This document shows, piece by piece, positions 33,686-59,660 of a stretch of 64,000 nt of DNA. Under the pieces are notes generated by a model. The model was not told where the DNA came from and did no database searches. It saw nothing but the letters and a program-made list of their open reading frames with translations. Within the stretch, counting starts at the first letter, position 1. Each line of letters begins with the position of its first letter. The stretch comes from Hydra vulgaris (lineage: Eukaryota > Cnidaria > Hydrozoa > Anthoathecata > Hydridae), in contig NC_088921.1 of assembly GCF_038396675.1 (NCBI RefSeq), positions 71,560,001 through 71,624,000 on the forward strand. Direction: 5' to 3'. Made by a program: the position numbers and the translations under genes.

Positions 33686-33699
33686 AACAAAACAGCAGT

Positions 33700-35345: not shown

Positions 35346-35375
35346 ACACAATGTATGAAAGTGGTGAAGTGGTAA

Positions 35376-35605
35376 TGCAGTAGTGGTGTAGTGGTAAAGC
35401 GCTCGCTTCATAAGCGAGAGGTTTTAAGGTCGATCCTACCATGTCCCTGGTAGTACCGTGCTCAACTTGTTTCTCCGCGCAGCGGCCTTGTTCGTAAAGG
35501 TTCGTGTTTCGGAGTTTTAGAGTTGAGAGAGGGTTATAACCACTATTAAGTAGCCTCCTCATCTTTAATGGCCTCCTTGAGGAAGTAAATAACGGAAAAA
35601 AAAAA
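35376..35605 (+). mobile_element. tRNA-derived SINE, copy 2
   Basis: Same head and body as copy 1, but the anticodon-like loop is TTCATAA in a CTCGC/GCGAG stem and the B box is GGTCGATCC. It ends with poly-A (35596-35605). Divergence from copy 1 is about 15% by eye. Confidence 0.88.
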
Positions 35606-35662
35606 GGTGTCCTATCTGAAACATCAAAAAATCCTGCGGGTACCCATGTACATGTATATAAA

Positions 35663-35665
<3 letters not shown>

Positions 35666-35745
<80 letters not shown>

Positions 35746-35780
35746 ATATATATATCTATATATATATCTATATATCTATA

Positions 35781-35856
<76 letters not shown>

Positions 35857-35870
35857 TATATATATATGGG
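35666..35870. repeat. (TA)n microsatellite with TATC variants
   Basis: About 205 bases of TA with several TATCTATA interruptions in the middle, immediately downstream of the SINE. Confidence 0.95.
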
Positions 35871-35879
35871 TTATGATAT

Positions 35880-37300
35880 TTTTGTGACCCCATTTTGTTG
35901 GGGCATAAATCAGTAATCATAAATCAATTTGTATAAATGTAATGAAAAAATACTTATTCGATTTTCTTGTCGAAAAAGGTCACCCACAAACCAAAAATTC
36001 AAATTTACCATATATACGAATGGATAAAATTTCAATTGTATATAACAAAAATATGTTGTGTAGTAGTTAGCTTAATTAAACCATAATATACAATTCTTAT
36101 CCATTGTTAGACAAAATAAGCATAAGCAGGAGGATTTTTTTCTTTTAAGAGATATCAAAAAAATCTTGAAGACACTTGATCATTTTTTCTGCACACTGAT
36201 TTATTCTGGGAATTTCCAGTGTCAATGGCATTTTCATTCCAAAACTGTTTCACTAAGTTTAATGCATTTTTATGACCATGCAAGCTGCTACAAGCTTTCA
36301 ACAATTACCTGCATTGTACATTTGGTTAGTAAACCGAATGGCCCACCCATCTGTAAGAGATAAATCTACATATGTTGAGTGGATCTTTTTTATCTGGTAG
36401 AAGAATAAATGCCAAAAGAACTAGTATTGCTTGGGAATTCCATCTTGCATTATTTAACTTAGATTTTTTTTGAAACTTCACTTTCAGAAAGACTACAGAC
36501 TCTTCAAAAGAAGGAATACCCAAATTAAATCAAATATAAATTTCATATCATCATGCTATCCTGCTGTTTCAATAATCACTTCTTTACCATTCTTCAAATT
36601 CTTCTTAAGCTGTTCGTAGTTCTTTATAAGTTCTGGGATAAAAGGATATTTGATAGTAGGATGTTTTCTTTAAGTTTTTCATTTATTACTATAGGAATGA
36701 CTTAGTCATGAACATAATATTGAGAATCAATGAATTGTGGTTCTTCCAGTTTCTTTTCAGTAAAACATCTAATTAACTGACTGACAATCCCATTCCTTTT
36801 TCCAGTGTTTAATTTTTTTTCAAGTTTCGGCTACAATCATATTATACTTCCATAAATTGTATTCATCGAGAATAGCTGTTATACCTATAACAGCAGTATC
36901 CGCTTTTCCATCTGGTAGGTCTAGTGCTTGTAACTTCACTTCTCTCAGTTTATTTTTCAACACTTGATATGGATTTGATATTCTTGGTGACTAATACATT
37001 TTCCATCAAAGTGCAGTGACCAGATTTCTAAATGTAGTGTTTCTTCTTTTCTTCTTTAAGTTGAACAGCTTCTTCAAATGTTGATATTAATATACTGGAC
37101 TACGTAGGTTTCTAAATGTCGATCCCATCTTGAGATAACTGCCAAATAATGGTTGTTGCTTTGCTGGTTGATAACTTTAAAAATGTTACTAATTTGGTTG
37201 CAGTTTTGATTTTGCTGAGGTTCTTCCTGATACTGACAAACTGCTCTTCTGAATTTTCAGATTCTTGATGTTCTATGGCTACTCCCCATCCCTAGCATTG
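35880..37300 (-). pseudogene. Unassigned DNA-transposon-like ORF remnant
   Basis: Minus-strand frames read, from about 37240 downward, KIKTATKLVTFLKLSTSK, later LPDGKADTAVIGITAILDEY (about 36930), QFIDSQ near 36740, and 36523-36326 (MGIPSFEESVVFLKVKFQKK...SYRWVGHSVY). The pieces are collinear but broken by many stops. The style resembles repetitive 'uncharacterised' transposon proteins from cnidarians and insects; I cannot assign a superfamily. Confidence 0.4.
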
Positions 37301-37332
37301 TCGGCCCTGTATAAATTAATTAAACAATCTCA

Positions 37333-38581
37333 TACAGGCCGAGGAACCAAAACATTGTAGCAGATACCTTTTCAAGATGTTGCTCGATTGTAAATAACAC
37401 TAAAGCGTTCTACAGTATCCATTCCCAGCTATGCCATCCTGGAGTTACAAGAATGATACATTTCTGCAAAACCAGAAATCTACCATACTCCACCGCAGAA
37501 ATCAAACAATTAACAAACCAATGTACAACTTTCAATGAACTCAAACCACGTTTTTACAAACCACAAACAGGTCGTCACATTCAGACAACAAGGCCTTGGA
37601 AACGCTTATCGATGGACTTTGTTGGACCTTTACAATCCACTACAACAAACAAATACATCCTCGTGGTGGTTGACGAGTACTCACGCTACCCATTTGCATT
37701 CCCCTGTCAAGACATATCAGCTAAAACTGTTATACGACACCTTCATAGCCTCTTTTCATTATTTGATGCACCATCATCTATTAATACAGATCGTGGAACT
37801 CAGTTCGAAAGCTTAAAAATTAATGTTTTTCTAGAAAAGAATGGAGTAATTAAAACTAGAACCACTCCTTACCATCCCCAAGGCAATGGTCAGTGTGAAC
37901 GAATAAACGGAACAATACTAAAAGCTATTAGTCTAGCTCTGAAAACCTTAAGTCTAGGAAAAGAGAAATCGGAAATAGTATTGCAAATGGCTTTGCCCTC
38001 CATAAGAGGACTTCTGTGTACCGTTACTAACGAAACACCCCATCAGAGGATGATGAACTTTCAACGCTCATCAATAATAGGCACTGTTTTACCTAACTTT
38101 AACAGAACAGGATTCCACAATTCTTTACAGACGTCAAGTACGAATGAAAGGAGATCCACTCGTTGACAGAGTTCAACTGCTAGAAACAATATCTCCCCAC
38201 TACGCTCGAACAAAATTTTAAAATGGAAAAATTGATACTGTTTCAACAAAAGACCTCGCCCCACTGGAAGACCTAAATCCCCCAACAGAATCAGTTCAAC
38301 AACAATCCAGTGATTTAAACATTGAACAGATGATCAACAATACCAGCAATTCAATAAACAGAAACCAAAAAGAACTAAACGAAACCAACGAAGTAACTTC
38401 AAGCCAATTAGTTGAGAATTCAATTATAGATAGTATCCCTTGTAATCAGTCACCTACAACAGCGGTACCTAGTCAGCCTATGCAGAAAGTTACTACTCCC
38501 GAGAATCTTACTAACATACCCTTAAGAACAGGACGCGTTACGAAGAGGCCAAAGTATCTCGACGACTACTTTCTTTCCTAG
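37333..38581 (+). pseudogene. Gypsy Pol: integrase and C-terminus (3' part)
   Basis: The linker YRPRNQNIVADTFSRC at 37333 leads into an HPGVTRMIHF zinc-binding HHCC region (second cysteine of the CC pair replaced by Phe in NQCTTF). The catalytic core follows with D in MDFVGP (about 37615), D in NTDRGTQF (about 37785) and E in GQCERINGT (about 37890). Frameshifts near 38110 and 38165 lead to a C-terminal tail ending RTGRVTKRPKYLDDYFLS at 38581. It would join the cDNA to the chromosome; this copy is inactive. Confidence 0.9.
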
Positions 38582-46075: not shown

Positions 46076-46378
46076 GATGATAGATGAATATTGGAAAAGT
46101 GCGGCAAGAGACCCGCCCTTTGAAATTTGTTTTTCAAACTTTACACTTTTCTAGATTTTACACCCTTTAAAAAACGAACACCCCTAGCCAGGGCAGGTCT
46201 CTTGAATTTTTTTATACGCCCCTAGCGAGGTCAATGCGCCCTGACGCCTTCGAGGGTCATAATAAAAAAGAAAGGTATAGGTTTAAAAAATATTATGATT
46301 TATTTACAGAAAATTCTAATTTTATAAACTCATTAATAGACATGTTGGGTAGTATTTTTTTTATATTTTTCTTATTGT
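46076..46378. other. Junction between Polinton and virus-like cluster
   Basis: CAAGAGACCCGCCCT (about 46107) and AGGGCAGGTCTCTTG (about 46190) are near-perfect inverted repeats, and CCCCTAGC(C/G)AGG occurs twice. This GC-richer patch could be the edge of an element or a regulatory palindrome. No gene. Confidence 0.4.
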
Positions 46379-46522
46379 TTATATATTTTGTTCGAGTTTT
46401 AAGCAGTTTACAAAATCCAATCCTCTCATTGGTCTTTTTAATTTTTTGCTCGGTACTTCCATTTCAAAAGGTTTTGCTGTGAGTTCACTTTCCAAGTCAT
46501 CATTATTATTATAATTATTCAT
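46379..46522 (-). CDS. Small hypothetical ORF, virus-like cluster
   Basis: 47 residues starting MNNYNNNDDLESELTAKPFE, with a KKLKRPMRGLDF basic stretch. Preceded by ATAAAAA directly before the ATG as in the other genes of the cluster. Function unknown. Confidence 0.4.
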   Translation of the reverse strand: MNNYNNNDDLESELTAKPFEMEVPSKKLKRPMRGLDFVNCLKLEQNI

Positions 46523-46660
46523 TTTTTATCCAAATAAAGTTGGAAAAAATGTTAATATAAAGTTATATAAAATATAAATAAAAAAATAAAGTAATAAAAA
46601 ATGGAATAAAAAAAGACAAAAAAATGTAATAAAAATATATATTCTAAATTAAAAAAATTA

Positions 46661-46759
46661 TTACTTTTGGAGCTGACGAGCTTGACGACTTCCACAATTC
46701 TTTTCGCAAAAATATCTCTCGTTTAATAGACGCGATTTTTTTAAACTTTCTTTATTCAT
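46661..46759 (-). CDS. Small cysteine-containing basic peptide ORF
   Basis: 32 residues: a KKSRLLNERYFCEKNCGSRQ stretch with one CxxxC pair. Start ATG 46759 follows a T-rich stretch and ACAG. The size and basic charge fit the many minor genes of this cluster. Function unknown. Confidence 0.35.
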   Translation of the reverse strand: MNKESLKKSRLLNERYFCEKNCGSRQARQLQK

Positions 46760-47238
46760 TATAAAGAAGTAGGGTTACATTGCTGTAAAAAAAAGAAAAA
46801 TAGGATTAACAAAAATGTTTTTATTTCAATAAAATAAAAGAAATGAATATACCTTTCATTGTGTTTCTCACTATTTTGCTCATTTTTTGATTTTTTGCGT
46901 ATCCACTTTTGTTTATTTTATTAGTTTCTAGCTATAAATATAAAATAATATCGTTCATATGTACAAATTTTTGTGAGGTAATAAAATCATATTGATCTAT
47001 AGACCATTCTCTGTTTTTTTTTTAATAAAATATAAAATTGATGATATTCAGTGTTGGATAAAAAGTTGTAAAAATAATGAGAATATTTCGAGTGAGAGAT
47101 ATAAAAAATTAACTTGTGCTTAAAAAAAATCTAAATTATCACTAAATAAAAAGCGAGGTCCATATTCTGTTGATATATCAAACGATTGATCGTAAATAAT
47201 ATATTCTGTATCGTAATATTGTATAGATATTGCAGTTC

Positions 47239-47433
47239 TCAGTTTTTTTGAAATAATTTAATTTCTAGACGTATTCTGTTAAATGCCATTTTCCTTTTAC
47301 TTATATCTTTCAATGATGGTACTTTTTCATGTTTATATGACAATCTTGTATGCGGACAAAGCCATACCAATTTTTCATATTGAAAATCGTATTCTTTAGA
47401 ACTTTTCCTTTGAATTTTCTTTATTGCTTCCAT
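47239..47433 (-). CDS. Hypothetical protein, family shared with 47707-48197
   Basis: 64 residues from ATG 47433. The C-terminal part SLKDISKRKMAFNRIRLEI resembles TLKDFCKRTLAHQRIIYEF of the neighbouring gene, so the two are probably paralogs. The L-K-D-x-C/S-K-R pattern is faintly like a SOCS-box core, which would recruit an E3 ubiquitin ligase, but this is weak. The leader TTTTTTTTTAGATAACTAAT precedes AAAAAAAATG, matching the cluster's shared leader. Confidence 0.45.
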   Translation of the reverse strand: MEAIKKIQRKSSKEYDFQYEKLVWLCPHTRLSYKHEKVPSLKDISKRKMAFNRIRLEIKLFQKN

Positions 47434-47464
47434 TTTTTTTATTAGTTATCTAAAAAAAAAAATA
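47434..47464 (-). promoter_or_regulatory. Shared leader: poly-T/AG + ACTAATAAAA before ATG
   Basis: On the minus strand: nine Ts, AG, then ATAACTAATAAAAAAA and the ATG. The same arrangement occurs at 48714 and 49928 (minus) and 58998 (plus), with looser versions before other genes. The poly-T/AG is a perfect 3' splice site; the ACTAATAAAA could be promoter or leader. Confidence 0.6.
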
Positions 47465-47706
47465 TTAAAAAAATTGTTTTACAATATTAACATGAATAAA
47501 ACAGTGCTCTGTAATATAAAATATTGTTTCTTTGCCCAGTTTATATATTCCATCATTAAATGATATAGTTTCTTCATTAAATGTGTTTCTAATTGTTTAT
47601 TTGCATTTGCAAAACACGAAATTTCTGTAAAAAGTAAACGAAATAGACTGTGAAGATAACGTCTTTGAAGATGAAAAAGTAATAAATGTTTTTTATTTTC
47701 TAAAAC

Positions 47707-48197
47707 TTATTCATAAAAAATGTGTTTTCGATAACTATAAAATAATAATCTAATAAAATCTCCTTTTTTCCATTTTGAGTGTGCTAGTTCGGTTCTATTA
47801 AATAGAGAGAAGATTTTGTTTTGTAATTGCTCAAATTCATAAATGATTCTTTGATGAGCCAAGGTTCTTTTGCAAAAATCTTTCAAGGTTAATTTATATT
47901 GTCTTTCAAGGGTAAATTTGTTTATGTTATCTAATCTATCATCGTCGTATTGAAAAAGGTAATAAGAAAAATGATGTTCGCGTGGTTCAAACAAAATCAG
48001 TGTTTCGTGATTAAAGTTTTCAATGTAAGAATGAATGTTTTCCAAATAAGTGAAACAACTTTCAGTTTTCTTGTTGATCTTTATGATTCTTTTTTGTCGT
48101 TTAATTTTTTCCTACGTTTATATAGAAAGTAGTGAAATGATCTAAATTCATCTTCAATGATTCTACTAATATTACCCCAGTTGCTTCTTATGATCAA
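47707..48197 (-). pseudogene. Hypothetical protein with lost start codon, paralog of 47239-47433
   Basis: The frame opens at TTG 48197 right after a T9-AG and AAAAAAA leader, exactly where neighbouring genes have ATG, so the start codon was probably ATG. It reads SNWGNISRIIEDEFRSFHYF, shifts near 48080, and continues 48045-47707 with HETLILFEPREHHFSYYLFQ and TLKDFCKRTLAHQRI. Function unknown; see the paralog for the faint SOCS-box-like pattern. Confidence 0.45.
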
Positions 48198-48344
48198 TTT
48201 TTTTTAAGTAGTAATCTAAAAAAAAATACAAATATAAAAAAATAACAAATACAAAAAAAAACACTTGTTGAAATCAAGTTCTTGAGCACATTCAGGTGCT
48301 TCAGGTGGTTCAGGTAAAGGATTATAAAAATTCAAAAGTTCCTC

Positions 48345-48713
48345 TTACTTGATACGTATAACTTCACTTGGATAAAATTCATTTGGCGGTGAGTAAACTG
48401 GTGGTAAATTTTTAAATATGCTTTCTTCATATAAAGGTAGTCGTGGTATTTTGTTTTTATATTTGTTTACAGTGTCTATTCGATGAATAACTTTGCACAT
48501 TTTCATTAAAAATTCTAATTTGCTCTCCAAAGTTTCATAAATATGACCCTGCTCATCTTCTATAACGTTATCTTTAATATACTCCATGATATCCATTGCT
48601 TTTTTTAAATTTTCTTTGATTCCATATGGTATTCTTAGCATAAATCTAATACTTCTCACGTTGTCAGAAGTGAGTTTGAGAGTGATTTGTCTGAAAATCT
48701 CTACTGAATTCAT
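48345..48713 (-). CDS. DED-like (death effector domain) protein
   Basis: 122 intact codons from ATG 48713. The first ~85 residues fit a death effector domain: FRQITLKLTSDNVRSIRFML (helix 1-2 with the buried L..l+..ls..slkFLL pattern), then a long middle helix (KAMDIMEYIKDNVI) and KLEFLMKMCKVIHRIDTVNK (the L..L...c+...R.DL region). Proline-rich tail follows. DED proteins assemble with FADD and caspase-8; viral single- or double-DED proteins (vFLIP type) block caspase-8 activation. Family call is by pattern only. Leader TTAGATCAACTAATAAAAAA precedes ATG. Confidence 0.5.
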   Translation of the reverse strand: MNSVEIFRQITLKLTSDNVRSIRFMLRIPYGIKENLKKAMDIMEYIKDNVIEDEQGHIYETLESKLEFLMKMCKVIHRIDTVNKYKNKIPRLPLYEESIFKNLPPVYSPPNEFYPSEVIRIK

Positions 48714-48739
48714 TTTTTTATTAGTTGATCTAACAAAAA
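48714..48739 (-). promoter_or_regulatory. Shared leader before the DED-like gene
   Basis: TTTTTTTTTGTTAGATCAACTAATAAAAAAATG on the minus strand, ATG at 48713, matches the leader of the TRAF-like and other genes. Confidence 0.6.
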
Positions 48740-48803
48740 AAAAATTTTCATGTATAAAAAATCATTATATGAAAAAAAGGTTACATAAAAAATAGAAAAA
48801 AAA

Positions 48804-49927
48804 TTACAAATTTGGACATAAATATATTATTGAATAGTAATCGTAATAAATTATTGTTAATAATAAACTGATGCAGTTCTTCTTGAGAAAAAAATTGGGG
48901 AAACCAAAAGGTACATTATACTCTTCGGTAGGTTTATCAAAATAACTCGCGTTTAAACATCGAATATAGTTTTCAGAGGTGATAGTATGAGCAAAAAATT
49001 TATCATTATTTCTTCGAGTAAAAATCACTTTATTGTTAAAGGGCCATTTTAAAGCATCATCATAGTCTCCTCGATTGAGTTGAAAGTAAATGGCTACATA
49101 GTTTACATTTGTACTGCGAGTATATATTTTTATGCGATAACGATAACCTTCAGGTGAGTAAACAGGTTGTGTATAATAAGCTTCGTTTGATAGCAGTCTT
49201 AGATTCATTTGATCGAGTCTGATGATATGCTTGTCTTTAAAGGGTGTTGAATTACTTTTTTTTGTTTTTTTAATGTTAAGAATTCTGCAGGGTTTTTTTC
49301 AACAATTTGATTGAGTTTTATTATTTCTTTATTGAGATTTTGTATATCTTTTTGATTTGCTAACATGGTCATGTTGTCATAGGCGAGATTTTTTAATTCT
49401 AGCATTTCATCGTTCATTATTTCGTTAGTTTGAACTAGTTTGATGTTTTCTTCTTTTAGTTTTTTAATTTCTTGATCGTCTTCTTTTTGTTTGAATAAAA
49501 AATTCTTTATAATCATTGTTTTGTTTTGCTATAATTTCTTGAAGATTTTTCATGCTATTCATAATGTAGTTATTTGAAAGATTTAAATAATTTGAATTTC
49601 TTTTTCAATCTTGGATAATTTGCTCCCTATATTGATTTTGTTGATCTTTGTAATGATGAAAACATATGACAGAGTGTTCATAGTAGTTATTATCGACTGG
49701 AGTATTACAAAAAACCCTATTTTTGGAACAATTTCTAGAAATTCATAATGGCATTCATGATTTAATAAATCTTTTACTTTTTTCTTACATGTAAATTATT
49801 CGTGACCAAATGTGTCTGCTGTTTATTGATCAAATTTGTCTTTAGAGCATTCTAGTTGATGATTCATGAGTTGATTCATAGCAAATTTTTCTTCGCAAAA
49901 CCAACATGGGAATTTGTTGTCAGCCAT
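48804..49927 (-). pseudogene. TRAF-like protein: zinc fingers, coiled coil and MATH domain
   Basis: ATG 49927 starts with a TRAF-type zinc finger (CWFCEEKFAMNQLMNHQLEC), a second degenerate one (C...LLNHECHYEFLE) and further Cys/His, with two stops and frameshifts between. The 49516-49205 frame is a heptad-rich coiled coil (IKKLKEENIKLVQTNEIM). Next, 49208-48804 is a typical TRAF-C/MATH fold: YTQPVYSPEGYRYRIKIY, YVAIYFQLNRGDYDDALKWP (D-x-LxWPF core), NKVIFT and NVPFGFPNFF. This is the full TRAF order except for an N-terminal RING. TRAFs link TNF-receptor-type receptors to NF-kB and JNK. In a virus-like context it may be a decoy adaptor; a captured host gene is the likely origin. Confidence 0.75.
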
Positions 49928-49955
49928 TTTTTTTATTAGTTGCTAAAAAAACATT
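49928..49955 (-). promoter_or_regulatory. Shared leader before the TRAF-like gene
   Basis: TTTTTTTAGCAACTAATAAAAAAAATG on the minus strand, the closest match to the leader consensus. Confidence 0.65.
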
Positions 49956-49989
49956 TAATTATATAAAAAAATCATAATAAAAAAATAAA

Positions 49990-50348
49990 CTAGTCTTTTT
50001 TTAAGTAAATCGACAAAAAAGATTTATCATGTATAGAAAATTTATAATCATAACAAATATAATAAGTATTTTTTAAATTGTTTATAAGTTCAAGATGAGT
50101 TGTTTCTTTTATTAAAATGTCTAATGACCAATACCATAATGCATCATATAAAATACGTGCTGCTTCAAATTTTGATCCGTGTTTTTGATGTAATACAGTT
50201 AAGACTCTGAACATTCTTTCATTTGTGTCTCGATAATCATGTTGTATACATTCGATTTCTCTTTTTTATATTCAAGGTATTGAGCTAAAGTTTCCCATCG
50301 TGATTGAAAACGTCCTGCTGTTTTGAGTTTAATTTTTGTAAAATTCAT
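49990..50348 (-). pseudogene. Death-domain-like protein 1
   Basis: ATG 50348 opens FTKIKLKTAGRFQSRWETLA with the W..LA...L pattern of helix 1-2 in Death domains. After a frameshift near 50270 the frame 50214-49990 gives MFRVLTVLHQKHGSKFEAAR then ILYDALWYWSLDIL, resembling helices 4-6 (LL..W...+G..at...L..aL). About 115 residues, the size of a stand-alone Death domain. Preceded by T7-AG and AATAAAAAAAATG. It might compete with FADD/TRADD-like adaptors. Confidence 0.42.
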
Positions 50349-50503
50349 TTTTTTTATTTTCTTCTAAAAAAATATAATATTTATTAGAAAAAAAATGTTT
50401 TGTAAATAATTTATTATAATCAAATTAACAACATATAATTTCAAAAAAAGTCCATTATTAACATCTTCTTTTTGCCATTTCGATAAAACAAAGTATAAAT
50501 AAC

Positions 50504-50695
50504 TTATCGCTCTTTTTTTTTGTTTGTGTGCTGTAAAATGTAAAGAATTAAATTTTTTTTTATTTTATCAAAGTTTTTTCGATAACTAACATCAATTTTT
50601 TTAATTTCGTTTCTTCTAAACTTGAGATAAATAGCTAATTCTTTCCAATCATGAATCAGTTCTTTTGAAGTATGATTTATAATTTGTTTAATCAT
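50504..50695 (-). CDS. Death-domain-like protein 2, short
   Basis: 63 codons from ATG 50695. IHDWKELAIYLKFRRNEIKK-IDVSYR closely follows the Death-domain helix 2-3 pattern (DW+.LA..L.....+I..I), then KNFDKIKKNLILYILQ as helix 4-5. It is shorter than a full Death domain, so the last helix is missing or the stop is secondary. ATACAATAAAAAAAATG precedes the start. Probably related to the neighbouring gene. Confidence 0.5.
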   Translation of the reverse strand: MIKQIINHTSKELIHDWKELAIYLKFRRNEIKKIDVSYRKNFDKIKKNLILYILQHTNKKKER

Positions 50696-50828
50696 TTTTT
50701 TTATTGTATTAAAAGATAACATAAAAAATTGAATAAACAAAAAAAATATAAATAAAAAACTATAAACAAAACAAGAATATAAAAAAAAGACTAAAAACTT
50801 TTTTCCTTAAAAAACAAATATACATAAT

Positions 50829-51250
50829 TTAAGAATCATCTTCTTGAGATTCAGGATCTGGACTCTCTAAAAAAGTGAGAGGGAATATTAAAAAAAATTT
50901 TTATATTAATTTATTAATAAAAAGTAGTAAAGTTAAACTTACGTGGGGAATAATCCTAGTGGGAAGGTCCCACTACTCTGTTGGTTGTAATTTCGTGTCT
51001 TTCAACAACCCTTTGTAAAAAGCGTTCCATTTTTTCCATGTTTTTATCTATAAGAAAAAAAAAGTTTTTATAAAAAAATCTTTTATTCTTTTTTTATATA
51101 AAATAATATAAAAAAATTACCTAATATGCTTGAATAAGGTCGTACGTGTTGAAATGGGGTTTTTTTTCCATTTTGGATAATATAGTGGTTTTTAAAAAAA
51201 CCATCGTGAACTACTTCATATTGTATTTTGTTAATGGATATGTATTTCAT
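50829..51250 (-). pseudogene. Spliced small gene with two introns, virus-like cluster
   Basis: Exons 51250-51121, 51047-50943 and 50866-50829. Donors are TTAG|GTAATT and CCAC|GTAAGT; acceptors are CTTATAG and TTTTTTAG. Introns are 73 and 76 bases. Phases (1 and 1) agree and the total is exactly 91 codons, strong internal support for splicing. One TAG in exon 2 (CAC TAG GAT) interrupts it. The product starts MKYISINKIQYEVVHDGFF and ends with an acidic SPDPESQEDDS tail. Function unknown. Confidence 0.7.
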
Positions 51251-51364
51251 TTTTTTTACTAAAAAAAATTATTAGTTGTTTTATTTTAAAAACACCATGT
51301 TGCTTTTTGTAATAATTAAAAAATATATATAAAGTTTAAATAAAAAATATTTTTTTTTTTATAA

Positions 51365-51667
51365 ATGCCTAAAATAAGGTATACTCCTAGATCCCTAAAC
51401 ACTGTAGATATGGCACGTACAAAAACAACAGTTCCTAGAACAAAAAAAGCAGTTCAAACACAAACTGGTACAAAACAGAGTTCAACATCGACACAGACTG
51501 AAAGTCAGTATTTACTGAGTAATTGTAAAAGAATATTATCTTGTTTACGAAGAATTAATAACAGATATAAAGATAATAAAACAAACCGTAAACTTGGAAG
51601 AGGTGGTAAAAGAAAAAAACGCTGGGTTCATACTGCTGAATCGTATGTCGATATTAAACATGAATAA
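51365..51667 (+). CDS. Basic protein with Ser/Thr/Gln-rich centre
   Basis: 100 intact codons from ATG 51365. An Arg/Lys-rich N-terminus, a TQTGTKQSSTSTQTESQ low-complexity centre and a very basic C-terminal stretch (RKLGRGGKRKKRW). Could be a DNA-condensing virion protein. It is the first plus-strand gene after the minus-strand death-signalling block, in a divergent arrangement with 50829-51250. Confidence 0.5.
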   Translation: MPKIRYTPRSLNTVDMARTKTTVPRTKKAVQTQTGTKQSSTSTQTESQYLLSNCKRILSCLRRINNRYKDNKTNRKLGRGGKRKKRWVHTAESYVDIKHE

Positions 51668-51902
51668 AAGAAGCAAATATAAGTCGAAAAAATAGAAAAA
51701 AATAATGTGTTTTACAAAAAAAAATTATTTATATATATATATGGTTGGTGTAAAAAACAGTCTTTTGATTCTTTTTTTTAAATCGCTTCTATTTTTGGAG
51801 CGACTTTTTTTTTCTTTTTTTTCTAAAAAAAAGAAAAAAAACTCGTAAGCTATTATATTTTTTTATTAGAAAAAAAAAATATAAAAAAAACTTTTTTGGT
51901 GA

Positions 51903-52100
51903 CATAGAAGACAGAGGAGACATAGGGGAGCTAAAAGATATATTTTTGCACATCGAAGACATTTACCTCACCCTAGACCTTATCATCCTTTAATTGGTAG
52001 AGGACAAAAACGTATACTTAGAAAACGCGGTAAAGGTATCCTTGGTAACTTATTAGGTAATATACCCATACTTGGTGGTGTATTTAAAACAATATTTTAA
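51903..52100 (+). CDS. Arg/His-rich peptide with hydrophobic C-terminal segment (core/pX-like)
   Basis: 66 codons open up to TAA 52098-52100; no ATG was found, so the start is lost or in an upstream exon (T-rich tract with TTAG at about 51868). The N-terminal half is arginine/histidine-rich (HRRQRRHRGAKRY), followed by GRGQKRILRKRGKG and a hydrophobic tail, ILGNLLGNIPILGG. A basic DNA-binding part plus membrane-active tail resembles adenovirus pX/mu and comparable adintovirus peptides by arrangement, not by alignment. Confidence 0.5.
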   Translation, partial: HRRQRRHRGAKRYIFAHRRHLPHPRPYHPLIGRGQKRILRKRGKGILGNLLGNIPILGGVFKTIF

Positions 52101-52165
52101 TCAAATTAAAAAATAAGTACAAAAAGCTAAACTCTGCAAACGTTTATTTACAAAAATTGAATTCA

Positions 52166-52552
52166 ATGCAAGTGTGTAAACAAGCGAAAAGAAGAACACA
52201 CATGAAAAAATATTGTAAAAAATGTTTAATCGAAAAATTTCGAGAACATGTCAAAGAAAATTCTCACGAATATATATGCTTGTTAAAAGACATGAAGAAA
52301 TATAACAAAAACGAGTTAAAAAATTTAAGAACCAACACTATTGTACGAGGCGATTACATTCTCACCTATGAATATAAAAATGGCATTGCCGAAATTATCA
52401 GTGGTACAAAAGAAAATGGTCATACGAAATCATCAACGTTTTTTGGAGGCCTAATATTAGACTATGATATTATACATAAATTATACAAGATAAGTCATGT
52501 AAATAAAGAAAAATTTTATATTGGTAACGAGATACCAAAAATAAGTTGTTAA
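52166..52552 (+). CDS. Hypothetical protein, virus-like cluster
   Basis: 128 residues from ATG 52166 (the frame is also open a little upstream but without an ATG). Starts with a Lys- and Cys-containing basic segment (CKQAKRRTHMKKYCKKC) and ends GNEIPKISC. The middle looks like a mixed alpha/beta domain (TIVRGDYILTYEYKNGIAEI). Not recognised. Confidence 0.5.
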   Translation: MQVCKQAKRRTHMKKYCKKCLIEKFREHVKENSHEYICLLKDMKKYNKNELKNLRTNTIVRGDYILTYEYKNGIAEIISGTKENGHTKSSTFFGGLILDYDIIHKLYKISHVNKEKFYIGNEIPKISC

Positions 52553-52646
52553 AAAAAATAATTAATAGTGTTTTTTCTGTTGTTTTTTTTAAAAAAAAAC
52601 TATAAATTTAGTTTTTTTATATTAAAAAATTCATATGAAAAAAAAA

Positions 52647-52892
52647 ATGGATTTTAAATCTGGTTTAAACAAATTTAACTAATCACTCATTAGTATAGAA
52701 GTTTCTAAATTTGATGCTAATGATGGACTAAAAGAAGTCCAGGGAAATTTTAAACTATTATTTTGCTTGGATGTCGTGACAGAAATTGAATTAACTTGTT
52801 CTAATGAAAACGCCAATATTGATTTTATTTTTCATGAAAAAAAACACGAATTTGAAATGTTATATGAAGATTTTGTAAACAAAATGAAATAA
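52647..52892 (+). pseudogene. Hypothetical acidic protein with one stop
   Basis: Opens at ATG 52647 after a run of As, TAA at codon 12, then stays open to TAA 52892 and, read through, to about 52955. Phe/Glu-rich beta-like segment (VVTEIELTCSNENANIDFIF). Function unknown. Confidence 0.4.
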
Positions 52893-52961
52893 ACATTTAA
52901 TCTTTGGTTACTGAAAGGACAAGATGATGTTTCACATGGTCATCTTATGAAATAAACTAGT

Positions 52962-53112
52962 ATAAAAAAAAAAAACGTATAAAAAAAAGAATAAAAAAAG
53001 TATAAAAACGTATAAAAAAAACGTATAAACGTATAAACGTAAACACGTAAAACGTATAAACGTAAACGTATAAACGTATAAACATAAACGTAAAAACGTA
53101 TAAACGTATGAA
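52962..53112. repeat. (AAACGTATA)n-type minisatellite
   Basis: Degenerate tandem repeats of CGTATAAA with runs of A between, about 150 bases, located between two plus-strand virus-like genes. Confidence 0.85.
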
Positions 53113-53183
53113 AAAAGTATAAAAACTTGTTTTCATATATGGAGAAGACAAAAACAGTATTCAGATTTTCACTTATTTAAAAC

Positions 53184-53441
53184 ATGGTTTATCGACGTAA
53201 AAGACGTTATAGACGAAAGTCTCGAAAAATTCGACGTACCAAAAATCGACGCGGAAGAGGATTAGCTGATTTTATTACCGCTATAAATGTAACCAACGCA
53301 TTGTAAGTGGGTTCGCTGTTATACGGTATAATAAAAGCGTGGAAAGGCAAAAAAACAATAACTGTGGCTACTCCTGTTCCTGTTGTTACAAAACCTGCAA
53401 ACCCTTATATGGCTCCCGATAAAGTGTTTGAAGTATATTAA
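53184..53441 (+). pseudogene. Second Arg-rich virion-like peptide
   Basis: 85 codons with a highly basic start (VYRRKRRYRRKSRKIRRTKN, RRGRG), TAA at 53301-53303, then a hydrophobic VGSLLYGIIKAWKGKK segment and a proline-rich tail. Same design as 51903-52100: a basic nucleic-acid-binding part plus a hydrophobic helix. The RGRGLADF after the basic stretch could be a protease-processing site, but this is a guess. Confidence 0.5.
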
Positions 53442-53572
53442 AAATAGACAGTTGTAAAGAATATTATGTAAAATCTTCTAAACAATAAAAATATACAATA
53501 AATGATGACTTTGTTTTTCTTTCGTTTTTTTCTTTTTACGTTTTATAAAGATAGTCTTTTTTCCATTACAAC

Positions 53573-53739
53573 TTAAACAAGATAATTATCATGATTCAAA
53601 GGAATTTCTTTTATTTTCATAGACAATAGCTCTCGTTCCAGCTTTTCCTGTTTTCTCATATATAAATGCAATTGCATGTCTTTTTCAAACAGTTGTTTAG
53701 CAGTTTCATCGAGATAGTGAATTAGTTCTTTTTGTATAA
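53573..53739 (-). CDS. Short helical ORF downstream of the protease
   Basis: About 54 codons: KELIHYLDETAKQLFEKDMQ, then a Lys/Glu-rich coiled-coil-like region ending HDNYLV at TAA 53573. No ATG; it may be the frameshifted C-terminus of the protease gene just upstream. Confidence 0.35.
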
Positions 53740-53769
53740 ATTAAAAAAATGGATACAGATTTAGCTAAA

Positions 53770-54454
53770 TTAGTTGGATGCATGAAGAGTTGTTACTGCG
53801 CCAAAATAACGGTTTACCAATCTGCACAGTGAAGGTAAATAAATTTGATCAGTATATAAACCATTTTCACTTCGAAATACTAGGGCGACAAAATAAGCTG
53901 CAAACGCACCACACAAAATGCTATCATTCCATTGAAAAGGAAATTTGTTATATGAAAAAAATATGTTTTGATTATTAGTCATTTCACTATATTTTAAAAT
54001 AAATTTGGTAAACCAATAAACTCATAATTATCTGCTGTCCATTCTGTAGAAAAATGATTTGTTTGTCGTATATAAGAACTAATTTCAATTTCATTGTAGT
54101 TAATATTAATAGTGTTGATTTGTATATTACTATTTATTTCTTCTATAGCTTCAAATAATTGTCTATTAAATCTTAAATGTTTTTGGAATTTGTTGTAATA
54201 TACTTTCTTCTCCTAAACTATCAAAACAAAAAAAATGAGCTTTGTCTATTTTCATCAACACTCTCCAATGTTGACCTGCTTCGTTTGTGGTTTCATTGTT
54301 ATAAATGATAAAAACACCATTTTATTTTCATATTATTAATAATAGGAATATAAGTTTGTTTTTGGCTAAGCTCGTCAAAAGCATAAACTACTATAAAATA
54401 ATTTTTAAATTCAAAATTTTTAAAAAAACGAGACAAAGATTGATCAGTAGCCAT
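53770..54454 (-). pseudogene. Adenain-like cysteine protease (virion maturation protease)
   Basis: ATG 54454 follows a T7-AG and GAATAAAAAA leader. The protein passes through three frames: 54454-54290 (SRFFKNFEFKNYF, IVVYAFDEL), 54290-54155 with AGQHWRVLMKIDKAHFFCFD-SLGE (catalytic His in QHW, Asp in FDSLG), and 53982-53770 with FPFQWNDSILCGAFAAYF (oxyanion Gln and catalytic Cys in the Q-x5-CG arrangement). His-Asp-Gln-Cys in this order defines the adenain/Ulp1 fold used by adenoviruses, Polintons and several NCLDVs to mature capsids. At least two frameshifts make it inactive. Confidence 0.68.
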
Positions 54455-54609
54455 TTTTTTATTCTTCTTTTTCTAAACTAAAAAAACTCGTAATAATACA
54501 GTTACAATAGCGTGCAATACATTAACAAATAAAGTTTTTTTATCGCTGGTTCCTTCCTTTATAATTCCTTCAATATTTCTTTTAACTGATTTCTTTTTTA
54601 AAGCTCCAT

Positions 54610-55015
54610 CTAGTTTTCTATCAAATAAGAGACGGTAGGTATAGATTTTGTAGTAAAGGTATCTACGAAACCGTCAGTTTGATCGCCATCTGTTTGATCA
54701 AAAGTAGGTTTGATATCTCTGTCTAGTATCAAAACAGTGAGCTTGGTTTTATAGAGTTTAGCTATATAGTTATCGCCGAGATGTTCAAAGTTGAGGATTT
54801 TCGAGCAAATTTTTAAATTGACTGTTTTTAAAACATTTTTCAATACGGTAAGAATTTAATGTTATTCTTTTAGAATCGAGTGCATTTTGTAGAAATGCAA
54901 ATGATTTTTTATTCGTATAATGTTCTTCTTCTACATGAACAGATGAGGGTGAAGAATTTCTAGACTTGTTTTCATGGTGTTTATATCTTTTAGACACTTC
55001 ATCAAGCGCGCACAC
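54610..55015 (-). pseudogene. Hypothetical protein upstream of the protease
   Basis: Two overlapping frames (55015-54785 and 54843-54610) likely represent one gene with a frameshift near 54800. Contains HHENKSRNSSPSSVHVEEEH (Ser/His-rich) and LYKTKLTVLILDRDIKPTFD. The region before the first Met (CAVC) may be part of the protein. Not recognised. Confidence 0.4.
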
Positions 55016-55037
55016 AGCGCAATTGTTATGAATTTTT

Positions 55038-55112
55038 TTAATGATGCTATCAACGCGATATCTATCGATGCTATCAACGCGATTAATGATGCTATCAACG
55101 CGAAATTTTTTA
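55038..55112. repeat. GATGCTATCAACGCGAT tandem repeat
   Basis: Three copies of GATGCTATCAACGCGA(T/A) at irregular 20-30-base spacing, separated by ATCTATC or TAAT. Lies between a minus- and a plus-strand gene. Confidence 0.85.
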
Positions 55113-55188
55113 ATGATTTTTATACTTTTTTATTCATTTTATCAAAAGAATACGCTTTTTTTTGTTAAAAAAAAGTTTACCTTTTTAG

Positions 55189-55914
55189 TTGTGGATTTTC
55201 GATTTCGAATTTATCACCAACAGAGATAATCATTGCTGGGGAAAAAATTGTATAAGAGAATTATGTCTACGCTTAATTAGCGAAAAACAGTTTTATCATA
55301 CACAAGTCATTCCCTGTGAAAAATATGAAACTTTGAAAGAAAAATATAAAAAAATATATTTATATTGTCTAAGTAATATACATGGATTAGACTACTATCC
55401 TACATTTCAACACACTGGCTAAATTATATTTTGAAGTTCTGTCGTCGAGTATTTAAAAGCAATATTTTCAAAATACGAACATATCTCGTTTTTTATAAAG
55501 GTGGCAATATAGGATGTAATACGACCAATAAAAGACCAAAAAATATACTCATTCGATTTAAACAGTTTATTATTTCCGAAATTGAGTAAACTTCCTAAAT
55601 ATATTATTAATGAAAGTTTATGTTTACAACATTTTCAACATAATATGACTAAAGAACATACACACGAACATTGTCCAAAGTATGAAACGCTTATGTTCAC
55701 CTTGTATTTAGAGGATTTCGATAATGGCTTTATAGAAAGTAACGATATTCAACAATATACAGAGTTTGATGTTGATAAATATGCGAGTTTTATTCGCTTT
55801 ATAAAGAACAATATTTGTTGCGTTTATATGTTAAAAAAAGACAAACGCGAATGTTTTAACAATATATTTCAAATAAATAAACATGTATATCAACTTTTTA
55901 AAATGGAAAAATAA
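55189..55914 (+). pseudogene. Possible DEDD-type 3'-5' exonuclease, three stops
   Basis: One frame from 55189 to 55914 contains only three stops (about 55423, 55435, 55510). The start shows IFDFEFITN (possible D-x-E exonuclease motif) and IRELCLRLIS, in the position of the usual E(I/L)..v segment. The second half has HTHEHCPKYETLMF (H/C/E cluster) and DKYASFIRFI. This could be a viral exonuclease, but alignment of the Asp residues is not convincing by eye. Confidence 0.35.
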
Positions 55915-56009
55915 TAAACAAATAAGAAAATGTCTTGCAAATAATCCTTATTTTGCGGTGACATAATATTTGGTATAATTAGTGTTTCTGTGTATAGGTT
56001 GTTTCGATA

Positions 56010-56399
56010 CTATTTCGTTGGTGTTATAATTATAAACTTCGTCTTCTTTTCTGTATAAAACGATTGAAATGTTAAAGTTTCTTTTAAAGAAAAAAACCAT
56101 TGAGCTGTAGGAAACATTTCTATTAAACTTTTTTCATGAAAATTACAGCGATCAAAGGCTTTATAAATGTAAACTTTATCTCCTTCTTCGCAAACTTTTT
56201 TTTCTATAAAATATTTGTAAATAGAAACAGGTGTATAAATGCTATAATACCCATTATGGAAAACTTTATCGTTGAATGAAAAGCAAGGTGGTTGGTCTTG
56301 CAAGGCGGTTACTACGCAAGCAGGGTAAACGTTTGTTAATATTTTACAATTTTTCTTCAAGTTATCATTTTCCCATTTGTTAAATATATAAGGAAACAA
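56010..56399 (-). CDS. Hypothetical protein, possible C-terminal part of 56411-57053
   Basis: Open for 129 codons: YPACVVTALQDQPPCFSF, HNGYYSIYTPVSIYKYF, KKVCEEGDKVYIYKAFDRCN. Separated from the upstream frame only by a stop and a shift around 56405, so both may be one gene. Beta-rich composition; possibly structural. Not recognised. Confidence 0.4.
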   Translation of the reverse strand: MFPYIFNKWENDNLKKNCKILTNVYPACVVTALQDQPPCFSFNDKVFHNGYYSIYTPVSIYKYFIEKKVCEEGDKVYIYKAFDRCNFHEKSLIEMFPTAQWFFSLKETLTFQSFYTEKKTKFIIITPTK

Positions 56400-56410
56400 A
56401 AAATAATGCT

Positions 56411-57053
56411 TTAACGTTTGTTTAAGTTTGCTTTCTTCATATTCATATTGTAACTTCTAGCCACATCGTTTTTATTGATGGTGTTGTGGAAAGAAGGTTC
56501 TACAGCTAATAATCTTTCGTACTCTGTATTATAAATCTCGTCCTCTTCTTTTTCTAAACGTATCGTGTATCCGTTAAACTTCACAGTTTTTAATATACCC
56601 GTTTTAGGATAAGTTACAGTGAGATAAGCTCTGTTTTGAGCACCTTGCATACTATCCATTAAAGCTTCCAACACTTTTTTTGTCATTTTGTTGCGATTAA
56701 ATTTAAAGACCACATTATTAGTAATTTCACCTTAGGGGCCAATTTTAAACTTGATGTCGTCTTTTGTTAATTTCAGTTCAGCTCTGACTAAATAATTTGT
56801 TTTATTGAGATCACACATTTCTCTGTATTTCCATGGTAGTAATATTTCACTAGTATCGATTTTTGGTTTATAGATCAACTCTTTTTAACATAGATGAGTT
56901 GTGCAAGAGGTTTAAGAGGAACAGTTGAATATTGTTTATCTTTTATATTTTTTTCTTCTTTAAAATCAAGATACCATTACGTGTCAGCTGCTAAATCTGC
57001 AAAGTTGACATGCTGTTATCATTGCAATAAACAGTTTCAATTTCGTTTTCCAT
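56411..57053 (-). pseudogene. Hypothetical protein, frameshifted
   Basis: From ATG 57053 (MENEIETVYCND) the sequence passes through three frames to about 56890, then stays open to 56411 apart from one stop: PKIDTSEILLPWKYREMCDL, VRAELKLTKDDIKFKIGP, FKFNRNKMTKKVLEALMDSM. Probably a 200+ residue beta-rich protein. Function unknown; by position a virion structural gene is possible. Confidence 0.4.
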
Positions 57054-57332
57054 CTTTTTTAAATGTAGTTTGAATAAATTTTAAATTAAAATGAGCTCCT
57101 TTTATACTGTTTTGAGTTGAAAAGAGAGATTAAAAAACGAGTACTAAACAAGTTTTTTTAAGAACGACATTCCTTACATAATGATGATGTAATGATGTTG
57201 TAATGTAAGTTTAAAGTTCAAAATGTGGCATGATGAACTTTAAAGTATGTACATTGATACTTTAATTCTATTTTAATAAAATGGTTTATGTTGCTATGAC
57301 TACCATTTTATATAAAAGGAAAAAAATTTTTT

Positions 57333-57527
57333 TTGTTCAAACATCAACATCTTCAGTTGAAGTTAGTGCAAAAAAAAAAGTGTTTAAATTGCAAGAAAAT
57401 GGAAAATGTTGAGATTCGTTATTATGAAAAAACAAGATTAGAAATTGTAAAGTTGAAATACAAACATTTTAATGGAAGTGTTATATTAGAAAAATCTTTA
57501 CTTGTAGAAGATTATGATAAAAATTAG
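57333..57527 (+). pseudogene. Hypothetical ORF
   Basis: Open for 64 codons (VEIRYYEKTRLEIVKLKYKH...VILEKSLLVEDYDKN). An overlapping frame upstream (VQTSTSSVEVSAKKKVFKLQ) suggests a frameshift near 57400. Function unknown. Confidence 0.35.
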
Positions 57528-57539
57528 TAAAAAAGTAGA

Positions 57540-57790
57540 CGACTGATTTTATAACATATGGATAGATACCGAGTTTCATACAAATATACCTTTGTTACCT
57601 TATATAAATAAAATTTTAAATAGAGAATTAAATAAAAGTGATTTAAACAATTTGACTTTTATTATCATAGGTTTGGACATTGCGATCTTTGTAAAAAATA
57701 TTTTTGTTTTTTTTTAATTGTTTTTTTTTGTAAATCAAATTTTTGTAAAGATTGCATTGTTTCTCACAGAAAAAAAAGGAACATGTAGTT
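57540..57790 (+). pseudogene. Possible zinc-binding protein fragment
   Basis: One frame gives IWIDTEFHTNIPLLPYINKI; the next gives GHCDLCKKYF...CKSNFCKDCIVSHRKKR, a C-x2-C...C-x4-C-x2-C-x3-H cluster that could bind zinc. Frames are broken; product unknown. Confidence 0.3.
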
Positions 57791-57837
57791 TATTCTTTTG
57801 ATCTTAAAAATAATGTATGTATTTAAACATTTTTAGA

Positions 57838-58358
57838 ATGATTAAAATAAGAGATGGACGTTGCAAACGTAACCAATGGTCTTCTTATGAAGCAAAAGGG
57901 ATTAAAAGGATTCAAATAAGAGATGGACAGGAATGGTGTTTTTATGAAACAAAAAATAGTGCTTGTTTTGATTTGAGAAGTACAAAGGATTATATACTTC
58001 AACCTATGCAACGTATTTTAGTAAGCACTGGCATATCTATTGATTTCATAGATCCAGATTTAGTAGGTCACATATATTTAAAATCAGGTATAGCTCTTAA
58101 ATATGGTGTTGTTGCGTTTAATTCTCCAGGAATAATAGACGCTGATTATAAAGATGAAATTAAAATCATATTGATGAATTATTCAAAAGAAGATTATATT
58201 ATTAAACGTGAGATGCTATTGCTCAAATGGGATTTGTGAAAACATTTAAAGCTATAAAAAAAATAATAGAAATTGATGGTTGTTCTTGTCATAAAGTGCT
58301 AGTGACAAAGATCAATAAAGTAGAAAGAAATGGTGGTTTTGGTTCCACTGGAAAATAA
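57838..58358 (+). pseudogene. dut: dUTPase (trimeric type)
   Basis: ATG 57838 follows TTTTTAGA. Conserved motifs in order: motif 1 SACFDLRS (about 57958), motif 2 LKSGIALKYGVV (about 58080), motif 3 GIIDADYKDEI (about 58132), motif 4 in the next frame (AIAQMGF, about 58213) and motif 5 ERNGGFGSTGK (about 58325-58355). A one-base frameshift near 58210 splits motif 4. The enzyme hydrolyses dUTP to dUMP, keeping uracil out of DNA; many DNA viruses carry it. The length is close to the usual ~150 residues plus a short duplicated IRDG-containing N-terminus. Confidence 0.85.
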
Positions 58359-58423
58359 TTTTGTAATATCTTTTTTATATATATTTACGGTTTTTTATTA
58401 TTTTTATAACATTAGTAAAAATT

Positions 58424-58990
58424 ATGGCTGATAGAATTGAAGAAAATGTGAGGCCTGCTTATACCATTTATACCGACTATCCAAGTTTTCTATTCAACTG
58501 ATTGTATAATAGTAAAATAAATAAATTAGATTTACTAATGTCCATTTTAGAAGAAATGCATAATAATGGTGGTAAAGGTAGTAAGATATGGATTTATGAA
58601 AATTTTAATAAACAATTAAAAAATGAAAGCAAAGTTTATTATAGCGTACCTTTTATTTTAAAATTTATCAATTTTTAATGAAATTGAATATAAATATGAA
58701 ATGTGATAACTACGTGGAAGAAGAAATTGGTTTGTATATCATGATGAGATCTACACCTTATGATGCAATTTTGAAATGGCATTTTATATATCGCGTAATT
58801 ACATTTAAACTATGTGGACCTTAATGGTAAACAAATTAAAAAAATTTTATTACTGATAATAAATCCTTTTCAACGATCGCCAAAAGATGTACAAAAATGT
58901 GGTTATGGATATTGTAGCTTTATAAATAAAGCAGACATTAATGAATATTTAGTTAAAAATAATTTATATATTAAATGTAAAATTGAGTAA
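58424..58990 (+). pseudogene. Second TRAF-type MATH-domain protein
   Basis: ATG 58424; TGA at about 58499 and TAA 58676-58678, frameshifts near 58680 and 58810. Across the frames the MATH pattern is clear: GSKIWIYENFNKQLKNES (strand 1), VPFIL, YKYEMKLNINMKCDNY, EEIGLYIMMRSTPYDAILKW (the yD..L.Wp.  core), RVITFKL, then PFQRSPKDVQKCGYGYCSFI and NNLYIKCKIE to the end. About 185 residues: a short N-terminus plus one MATH domain, lacking zinc fingers. Opposite orientation and low similarity to 48804-49927 indicate an old duplication or separate capture. Confidence 0.65.
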
Positions 58991-58997
58991 TTTTTTT

Positions 58998-59024
58998 TAT
59001 TTTTAGTCAACTAATAAAATAATG
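58998..59024 (+). promoter_or_regulatory. Shared leader, plus-strand copy
   Basis: TTTTTAGTCAACTAATAAAATAATG, ATG at 59022, matches the minus-strand leaders. A looser copy (TTTTTTTAGATCAATTAACAAAACATGG) precedes the gene at 59310. Confidence 0.65.
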
Positions 59025-59035
59025 TTTGCTATATT

Positions 59036-59281
59036 ATGTCGAATATTTGCTGTTTTATTTATCTATTATGTTGTTTAGAAACTTGTGATTTTAATTTAAT
59101 GGAAATAGATATGTTAAGTTTTATGAATTCAATGGAAATAGATAATTTTATTCAAAATTATTTAAATGATTTAAAATTTATAAGTTAAAATTTTTCAAAA
59201 TTATTAACTTTTGCTTATAAACATATCGAATATACTCATGATTTAGTATATGATTTTAATAATTTATCTGTTAAATTGTAA
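59036..59281 (+). pseudogene. Small Cys-rich N-terminus protein (possible signal peptide)
   Basis: From ATG 59036: SNICCFIYLLCCLETCDFN, a hydrophobic Cys-rich start that could be a signal peptide, then MEIDMLSFMNSMEIDNFIQN and, after a TAA at about 59186, an open tail to 59281. The leader is positioned for ATG 59022, which is in another frame, so a frameshift may have occurred just after the start. Confidence 0.4.
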
Positions 59282-59309
59282 TTACTTTTTTTAGATCAAT
59301 TAACAAAAC

Positions 59310-59660
59310 ATGGAAACTTTTCAAAAAAACAATAAATGGGATTTGATTAAAGAAGAGTGTAATGCTATGTCTAACATGTTTCAAAACATGTTGAAGTTTT
59401 TACAAATTGTTGATGGTGCTCAAATATTAAAATTGAAAGAAGAAAAATTAAAAGAAAAGAGAAATTGTGTTCGTGATATAGATACAGGTTTATTGTCTTA
59501 TGTTTGGGACGATATCAAAATACAAAACATGTATTTGAAAGTTGTTATGAAAGCGTTTATAGAGAGCAATAATTCTATTGAATTGTTTCATCGTTATCAG
59601 AAAAATAATGTAATAATAACAGCAAACAATAAACAAATTTTAAAATGTAGAAAATTTTGA
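59310..59660 (+). CDS. Hypothetical helical protein, last gene of the virus-like cluster
   Basis: 116 intact codons from ATG 59310. Predicted mostly helical (NNKWDLIKEECNAMSNMFQN; MLKFLQIVDGAQILKLKEEK). Length and spacing resemble another death-fold (CARD/DED) protein, but no diagnostic pattern is present. The T7-AG leader precedes it. Confidence 0.45.
   Translation: METFQKNNKWDLIKEECNAMSNMFQNMLKFLQIVDGAQILKLKEEKLKEKRNCVRDIDTGLLSYVWDDIKIQNMYLKVVMKAFIESNNSIELFHRYQKNNVIITANNKQILKCRKF

Follow-up and report, generated by a model that had tools for sequence, protein, structure and literature searches.

Why should a run of small, tightly packed reading frames in the genome of Hydra vulgaris place a putative virus-like protease and a dUTPase beside proteins that resemble death-receptor adaptors? 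The run lies in a 64-kb stretch of DNA (G000:C2:71560001-71624000; hereafter the window, in whose positions coordinates are given), and the original prediction, made from the letters alone, had read positions 46379-59660 as a decayed, endogenised DNA virus or Polinton-like element of a cnidarian with captured genes of the TNFR/caspase-8 pathway. We consider it likely that the cluster represents one end, 13 kb long and decayed, of a Maverick/Polinton-like endogenous virus that measures 42.4 kb, bears an integrase and has a conserved death-signalling module. This module consists of a RING-less TRAF, a second, lone MATH protein, a single-DED protein and two lone Death domains. The virus group itself is known, and what appears to be new here is the adaptor module on the element.

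The viral reading is supported by intact relatives. Window frames were used to search the whole genome (911.5 Mb, 15 contigs), with about 150 candidates scored per search, and all counts are lower bounds. The matches listed number at least 151 for dUTPase (of 378 candidates), at least 150 for TRAF-MATH (of 489) and at least 150 for DED (of 369); with the Death domain of an intact copy as query they number at least 150 (of 551). One copy on C2 (28331563-28373994) measures 42,432 bp and ends in imperfect inverted repeats (72% over ~260 bp). An exact 6-bp direct target duplication, which is a Polinton feature, borders all four copies that were checked, and because their flanks all differ as well, the four are separate insertions. 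Near-identical copies are located on different chromosomes and share 99.33-99.97% identity across the 3.6 kb compared at the TRAF end, 99.49-99.75% across 9.2-9.9 kb of the dUTPase side, 100% across 9.8 kb in the PolB-integrase part and 99.75-100% at the far end, opposite TRAF. Hence "decayed" is correct for the window copy, in which frames are broken, but not for the family, in which near-identical copies with open frames exist.

The intact gene order starts at the TRAF end with p156 and p246 (related proteins, 7e-15), the DED-like protein (139 aa), TRAF (356 aa), a short frame and the two Death proteins (104 and 96 aa). It continues with p134 and the Arg-rich protein, p140, p144, p99, p113, p110, the protease-like protein (387 aa), p213, p133, p314 and p236, followed by dUTPase (157 aa), p138, p165, p167, p154, more small frames and a PIF1 helicase (410 aa), and ends with PolB, p121, an ATPase (420 aa), p230, p711, the integrase (431 aa), p1048, p207 and p571. 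The gene order of the window, when sought among relatives, does stand beside a probable polymerase and a putative ATPase: the copies carry PolB, an integrase and a P-loop ATPase, with the capsid as a candidate only. The helicase frame matches Pfam PIF1 at 3.5e-35, and the integrase matches rve at 1.7e-6, its 28.7 bits falling a little short of the 32.6-bit cut-off. The PolB frame stays open over 1984 aa, and for its residues 330-1000 the sole protein match is 'PolB [Hydra MELD virus]', 43% identical (49% in a second comparison). Its N-terminal half (~950 aa) is Lys-rich (L030:1-2850, minus strand), tandem repeats occur in the corresponding part of L025, and no Pfam family was found in 931 N-terminal residues.

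The 571-aa and 1048-aa proteins are putative capsid proteins by motif or position. At least 78 matches to the 571-aa candidate are listed (76 scored of 824 candidates), of which 12 are complete, open and 100% identical, and an unnamed ENA protein on a 2-kb contig (P0001) is 61% identical to it over the full length. Elsewhere in the window, positions 22292-22876 (minus strand) hold a piece of a double jelly-roll protein, of which 29 residues match Pfam PF21738 (1.5e-6, narrowly above the cut-off). A profile comparison gave no match between this fragment and the 571-aa candidate, and the fragment accordingly appears to be a remnant of another capsid-bearing element.

Matched at the DNA level to element sequence, the window fragment spans 46282-59312 (~13 kb): L032 (1-3595) reaches 46282 and the dUTPase side reaches 59312. 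About 560 bp are absent at the TRAF-side end, as are both terminal repeats and the half that bears the helicase, PolB, integrase and virion candidates, and the loss of that half is why no capsid, polymerase or ATPase had been recognised. Of 36 frames from intact, near-identical copies, 17 (p156 to p138) have remnants that tblastn finds in the window (E up to 1e-3; p140 weak), all of them inside 46.9-59.3 kb, which makes the cluster more than chance. The 19 unmatched frames comprise 15 beyond p138 and four within the fragment (p81, p134, p113, p110), and the second MATH is one further remnant beyond the 17. About 25 small frames in strand blocks had been described; we count 22 ATG-started frames in 45.5-60.5 kb, and the frames that have relatives do sit in alternating strand blocks, while 45 stop-to-stop frames of at least 60 aa overlap 46379-59660 (18 on the plus and 27 on the minus strand, antisense and chance frames included). 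The frames of TRAF, protease, dUTPase and second MATH are broken in this copy. The dUTPase is recognisable by its Pfam match (Table 1) but is no complete single-frame gene, since it continues in another frame.

The module is best seen in intact copies. The intact TRAF frame matches Pfam MATH at 1.1e-18, and a sequence comparison with PDB places TRAF5 nearest (2.8e-11), with TRAF5 and TRAF3 the closest solved structures. Besides MATH, the frame has a coiled-coil-like stretch and Cys/His pairs, and Pfam detects no RING family (E up to 1) either there or in two RefSeq relatives. Both intact Death frames lie over the Pfam cut-off of 22.6 (33.4 bits, 4.9e-8; 25.7 bits, 1.3e-5). The intact DED frame matches Pfam DED at 7.5e-7, under the cut-off, with one DED match per protein and not two in tandem. 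Behind the domain, 11 of the 12 distinct DED frames examined have a PPxY motif, a binding site for WW-domain ubiquitin ligases. In the window itself, the TRAF-like call is confirmed by its MATH match, and the second MATH protein is real though split over two frames, tblastn with intact relatives being in agreement. The two Death-like calls are upheld by their intact relatives, but the window copies are below the cut-off or without a match (the second frame, 49993-50265, has no Pfam Death match of its own, and its intact relative matches at 4.9e-8). The DED-like call likewise has a Pfam match that remains below the cut-off.

The element carries its death-signalling genes as a conserved module. 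Of the 150 TRAF-MATH places listed, 102 have a listed DED no more than 2 kb downstream, 90 a listed Death domain no more than 8 kb upstream and 88 a listed dUTPase 4-25 kb upstream on the other strand, compared with 0.05, 0.12 and 0.28 expected at random positions. At least one partner is present at 139 of them, all three at 46 and none at 11. Seen from the other genes, one or more listed partners accompany 135 of 150 DED, 126 of 150 Death and 117 of 150 dUTPase places. The listed matches of the four genes form at least 246 clusters on all 15 contigs, 49 of which contain all four, and the second lone MATH lies within 2 kb past the listed dUTPase in 91 of 150 cases. Constraint was estimated from open frames aligning over at least 80% of the query length, a choice that biases dN/dS and pN/pS downward, and the values have no neutral control. 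With these limits, dN/dS is 0.21-0.46 for TRAF (15 pairs, 6 distinct frames) and pN/pS is 0.24-0.74 for DED (median 0.38; 66 pairs, 12 frames). Values of ~0.3 at dS up to 0.84 are unlike those of decaying frames and indicate purifying selection on the TRAF frames.

Host-gene capture had also been proposed. On the tree, each of the two MATH families arises once (support 100/99 and 100/100) and is separate from ten other MATH exons of Hydra. Capture is supported to that extent, but no donor gene was found. The ten exons come from the 12 best Pfam scorers and are assumed to be host genes (higher scores, no listed element gene nearby); the deep forks of the tree are weak (61/73) and several of the ten are long-branched. 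Among the 150 listed genome matches of the Pfam TRAF-MATH model, 12 reach 88-146 bits and the other 138 at most 80, and not all of these 138 have been traced to an element. A profile of four element TRAFs retrieves 28 RefSeq proteins, all from H. vulgaris (P0003-P0030), of which 25 carry the name TNF receptor-associated factor 2-, 3- or 5-like, one is MG328-like and two are uncharacterised. Two of them (P0004, P0005) have the same sequence as element frames from end to end, and the other 26 are relatives, 43-94% identical to one such frame. Judged by this identity, two RefSeq Hydra genes of the 'TRAF5-like' type are element TRAFs. We lean towards the wider view that a recently active virus-transposon lastingly carries a death-signalling complex split into small proteins (two Death, DED, lone MATH and RING-less TRAF), and that much of the apparent TRAF repertoire of Hydra is viral.

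Several results weigh against the identity that we propose for the element and its module. The PolB frame matches no DNA polymerase family in Pfam, and the call depends on the named relative. The 420-aa ATPase frame has a P-loop with only sub-threshold Pfam matches, and neither the 571-aa nor the 1048-aa capsid candidate has Pfam support. For the protease, the order of the His, Asp, Gln...Cys-Gly motif, which we take to be adenain-like, stands as first described, but Pfam gives no match and PDB by sequence none that is relevant. In the module, the Death domain reaches only E 0.1 or worse against PDB by sequence and the DED frame finds nothing there; DED is below the Pfam cut-off of 35.9 in eight of nine frames scanned (21.9-29.7 bits), and the ninth has no match. 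In a genome-wide DED search, places coinciding with element DEDs score 28.8-29.9 bits and other Hydra DEDs up to 59 bits. Constraint is weaker for dUTPase (dN/dS 0.42-0.94, 6 frames) and for p246 (about 0.62-0.65 in the five of its six pairs that allow the calculation). Among the matches listed, no second MATH accompanies the 11 newest-subfamily copies, in which ~110 bp lie between dUTPase and the next frame; hence not all parts of the module are needed.

How does the element compare with known groups? With Polintons/Mavericks it shares the rve integrase, the inverted repeats and the 6-bp target duplication, and probably also PolB, a P-loop ATPase and a protease-like protein. It differs in adding a PIF1 helicase, dUTPase and the death-signalling module, in having a capsid candidate only, and in size: in the excerpted text of PMC4028283, Polintons span 15-20 kb and encode pPolB, rve, ATPase and protease, and since 42,432 bp is outside this range, we file the element as Maverick-like and not as a typical Polinton. 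An extract of PMC12220107 lists Maverick as a putatively active Hydra transposon family, with all such families expressed and Maverick outside the top fifth. The Hydra MELD virus (GenBank TPA, taxid 2707310; from Hydra by its name) is compared through PolB alone (43-49% identical), on a contig of 17,997 bases, and its record has its own taxon; with such a relative already in GenBank, the virus group is not new. Adintoviruses also combine an integrase with PolB, and in the available portion of PMC11071296 are defined by a PolB with an N-terminal OTU-like domain, an integrase with a C-terminal chromodomain and a hexon that BLASTP can recognise. In the Hydra element, Pfam finds no OTU-like domain in the N-terminal half of PolB and no chromodomain on the integrase at E up to 1, and adintovirus membership is rejected on these two features. 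According to the same portion, adintoviruses associated with mammals for the most part seem to encode anti-apoptotic homologues and/or candidate oncogenes. The strategy thus has precedent, although the Hydra cargo is of another kind. H. vulgaris is listed among genomes with NCLDV proteins in a partial text of PMC5294986; we set an NCLDV insert aside, since a Maverick-type element is the better fit for the inverted repeats and the rve integrase, a judgement made with no dedicated NCLDV comparison. No free relative came up in viral contigs, either with one query each of PolB and TRAF or in alignments of PolB and the 571-aa candidate, and two PolB queries gave nothing in phage records. Searches of the open-licence literature turned up no description of the adaptor module, though the founding adintovirus work may mention it.

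Two further comparisons concern the cargo. The viral FLIPs of herpesviruses and poxviruses are likewise lone adaptor domains carried by DNA viruses, but the Hydra element has one DED instead of two, plus lone Death domains and two MATH proteins including a RING-less TRAF. Vertebrate TRAF1 is also a TRAF without a RING, whereas the Hydra TRAF is carried by a virus-like element and has TRAF5 and TRAF3 as its closest solved structures.

In the mechanism we propose, the virus would insert by its own integrase, have its genome copied by its own PolB, be packaged by its own ATPase and mature by its own protease. Whether the module acts in the infected cell as a set of decoy adaptors that block or rewire TNFR/FADD/caspase-8 signalling is an even call. 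The RING-less TRAF and lone MATH would occupy receptor tails with no ubiquitin-ligase output, the lone Death domains would cap receptor-FADD assembly and the single DED would cap FADD-caspase-8, like FADD cut into two halves, and the net effect would be cell death delayed or rewired during virion formation. It is less probable, and in our view unlikely, that the same element uses the module to switch death or NF-kB signalling on, for virion release or viral transcription. Lone Death and DED proteins may nucleate assemblies as well as cap them, and the PPxY motif might recruit a ubiquitin ligase, but a RING-less TRAF better suits a blocker, and the anti-apoptotic homologues of most mammal-associated adintoviruses, as given in that portion of PMC11071296, point the same way. 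Still more doubtful is that the TRAF, MATH, DED and Death frames encode proteins of the virion or of its assembly that merely resemble host adaptors: the weak DED matches favour this and PPxY also occurs in adenovirus virion proteins, yet the TRAF-MATH and Death matches exceed curated cut-offs, three domain kinds of one pathway stand side by side, and the newest subfamily does without the second MATH. Ordinary host genes with conserved synteny, or a host cluster beside a transposon, are rejected as highly improbable despite the TRAF-like names of 25 of the 28 retrieved relatives, because the module is enclosed by the inverted repeats in near-identical copies from different chromosomes, recurs genome-wide with dUTPase and has MATH sequences that group apart from the ten other Hydra exons.

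Table 1 Features of the element fragment in the window
Feature	Position	Strand	Evidence
Element fragment, extent	46282..59312	.	DNA match and tblastn with 36 frames
p156 remnant, small protein related to p246 (7e-15)	46935..47325	-	tblastn 2e-9
p246 remnant, no function assigned	47518..48111	-	tblastn 4.9e-60, 53%
Single-DED-like protein, PPxY motif behind domain	48279..48713	-	Pfam DED 1.1e-5, below cut-off; tblastn to intact frame 6.6e-49
Pfam DED-matching frame	48348-48761	-	1.1e-5, 25.9 bits vs cut-off 35.9
TRAF-like protein (zinc-finger-like part, coiled-coil stretch, MATH), split over frames	48807..49951	-	Pfam MATH 4.9e-16; tblastn 4e-57, 2e-36
MATH-matching stretch of TRAF-like protein	48807-49298	-	Pfam 4.9e-16
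104-aa Death-domain protein remnant	50044..50339	-	tblastn 3.4e-25; intact relative Pfam Death 4.9e-8, over cut-off
96-aa Death-domain protein remnant	50409..50695	-	tblastn 2e-19; intact relative Pfam Death 1.3e-5, over cut-off
Pfam Death-matching frame	50507-50806	-	2.2e-4, 21.7 bits vs cut-off 22.6
Arg/Lys-rich small protein, possibly virion core	51365..51664	+	91% identical to intact frame, 6.5e-58; Pfam nothing convincing
Short frame, basic and hydrophobic stretches	51903..52097	+	Read from frame; Pfam none
p144 remnant, no function assigned	52139..52543	+	tblastn 1.2e-53
p99 remnant, no function assigned	52647..52925	+	tblastn 1.7e-22
Adenain-like cysteine protease candidate, broken over several frames	53582..54454	-	tblastn 7e-93, pieces 69-89% identical to open 387-aa frame; protease by motif only
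p213 remnant, no function assigned	54479..55057	-	tblastn 1.1e-48
p133, frame still open, no function assigned	55513..55911	+	tblastn 7e-42
p314 remnant, no function assigned	55942..56435	-	tblastn 9e-54, 4e-20
p236 remnant, no function assigned	56423..57012	-	tblastn 3e-64
dUTPase, frameshifted near 58.2 kb	57814..58355	+	Pfam 1.9e-17 (57814-58236); continues in another frame 58212-58355
Second, lone MATH protein, split over two frames	58645..58987	+	Pfam 1.4e-5 (58645-58821), 9.3e-4 (58799-58987), both below cut-off; tblastn 1e-29 to 1e-14
p138 remnant, last recognisable element gene	59120..59312	+	tblastn 9e-9; DNA match

The window and its surroundings hold further elements. About 57-132 kb past the window, at G000:C2:71680645-71756404, copies or remnants of the family give two matches to the 571-aa candidate, a dUTPase, a Death domain and a MATH, and this chromosome end is thus rich in the element family. 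Inside the window, a 73-bp tandem unit occurs in opposite orientation at 27062-27663 and 32321-32606, flanking a 391-aa frame (30417-31592), and these units are perhaps the ends of a DNA transposon. Judged by eye, frames at 33149-38166 (plus strand) look like parts of a Gypsy-type retroelement, namely its gag zinc knuckle, its reverse transcriptase/RNase H and its integrase.

As a laboratory model for ageing and cell death whose genome has many young copies of the element, Hydra makes viral control of an early animal death-receptor pathway directly testable. Hydra TRAF genes in databases need a check for viral origin before expansions of TRAF or death-pathway genes are counted in cnidarians. 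Through the element one can also study how cell death in an early-branching animal might be steered by a virus.

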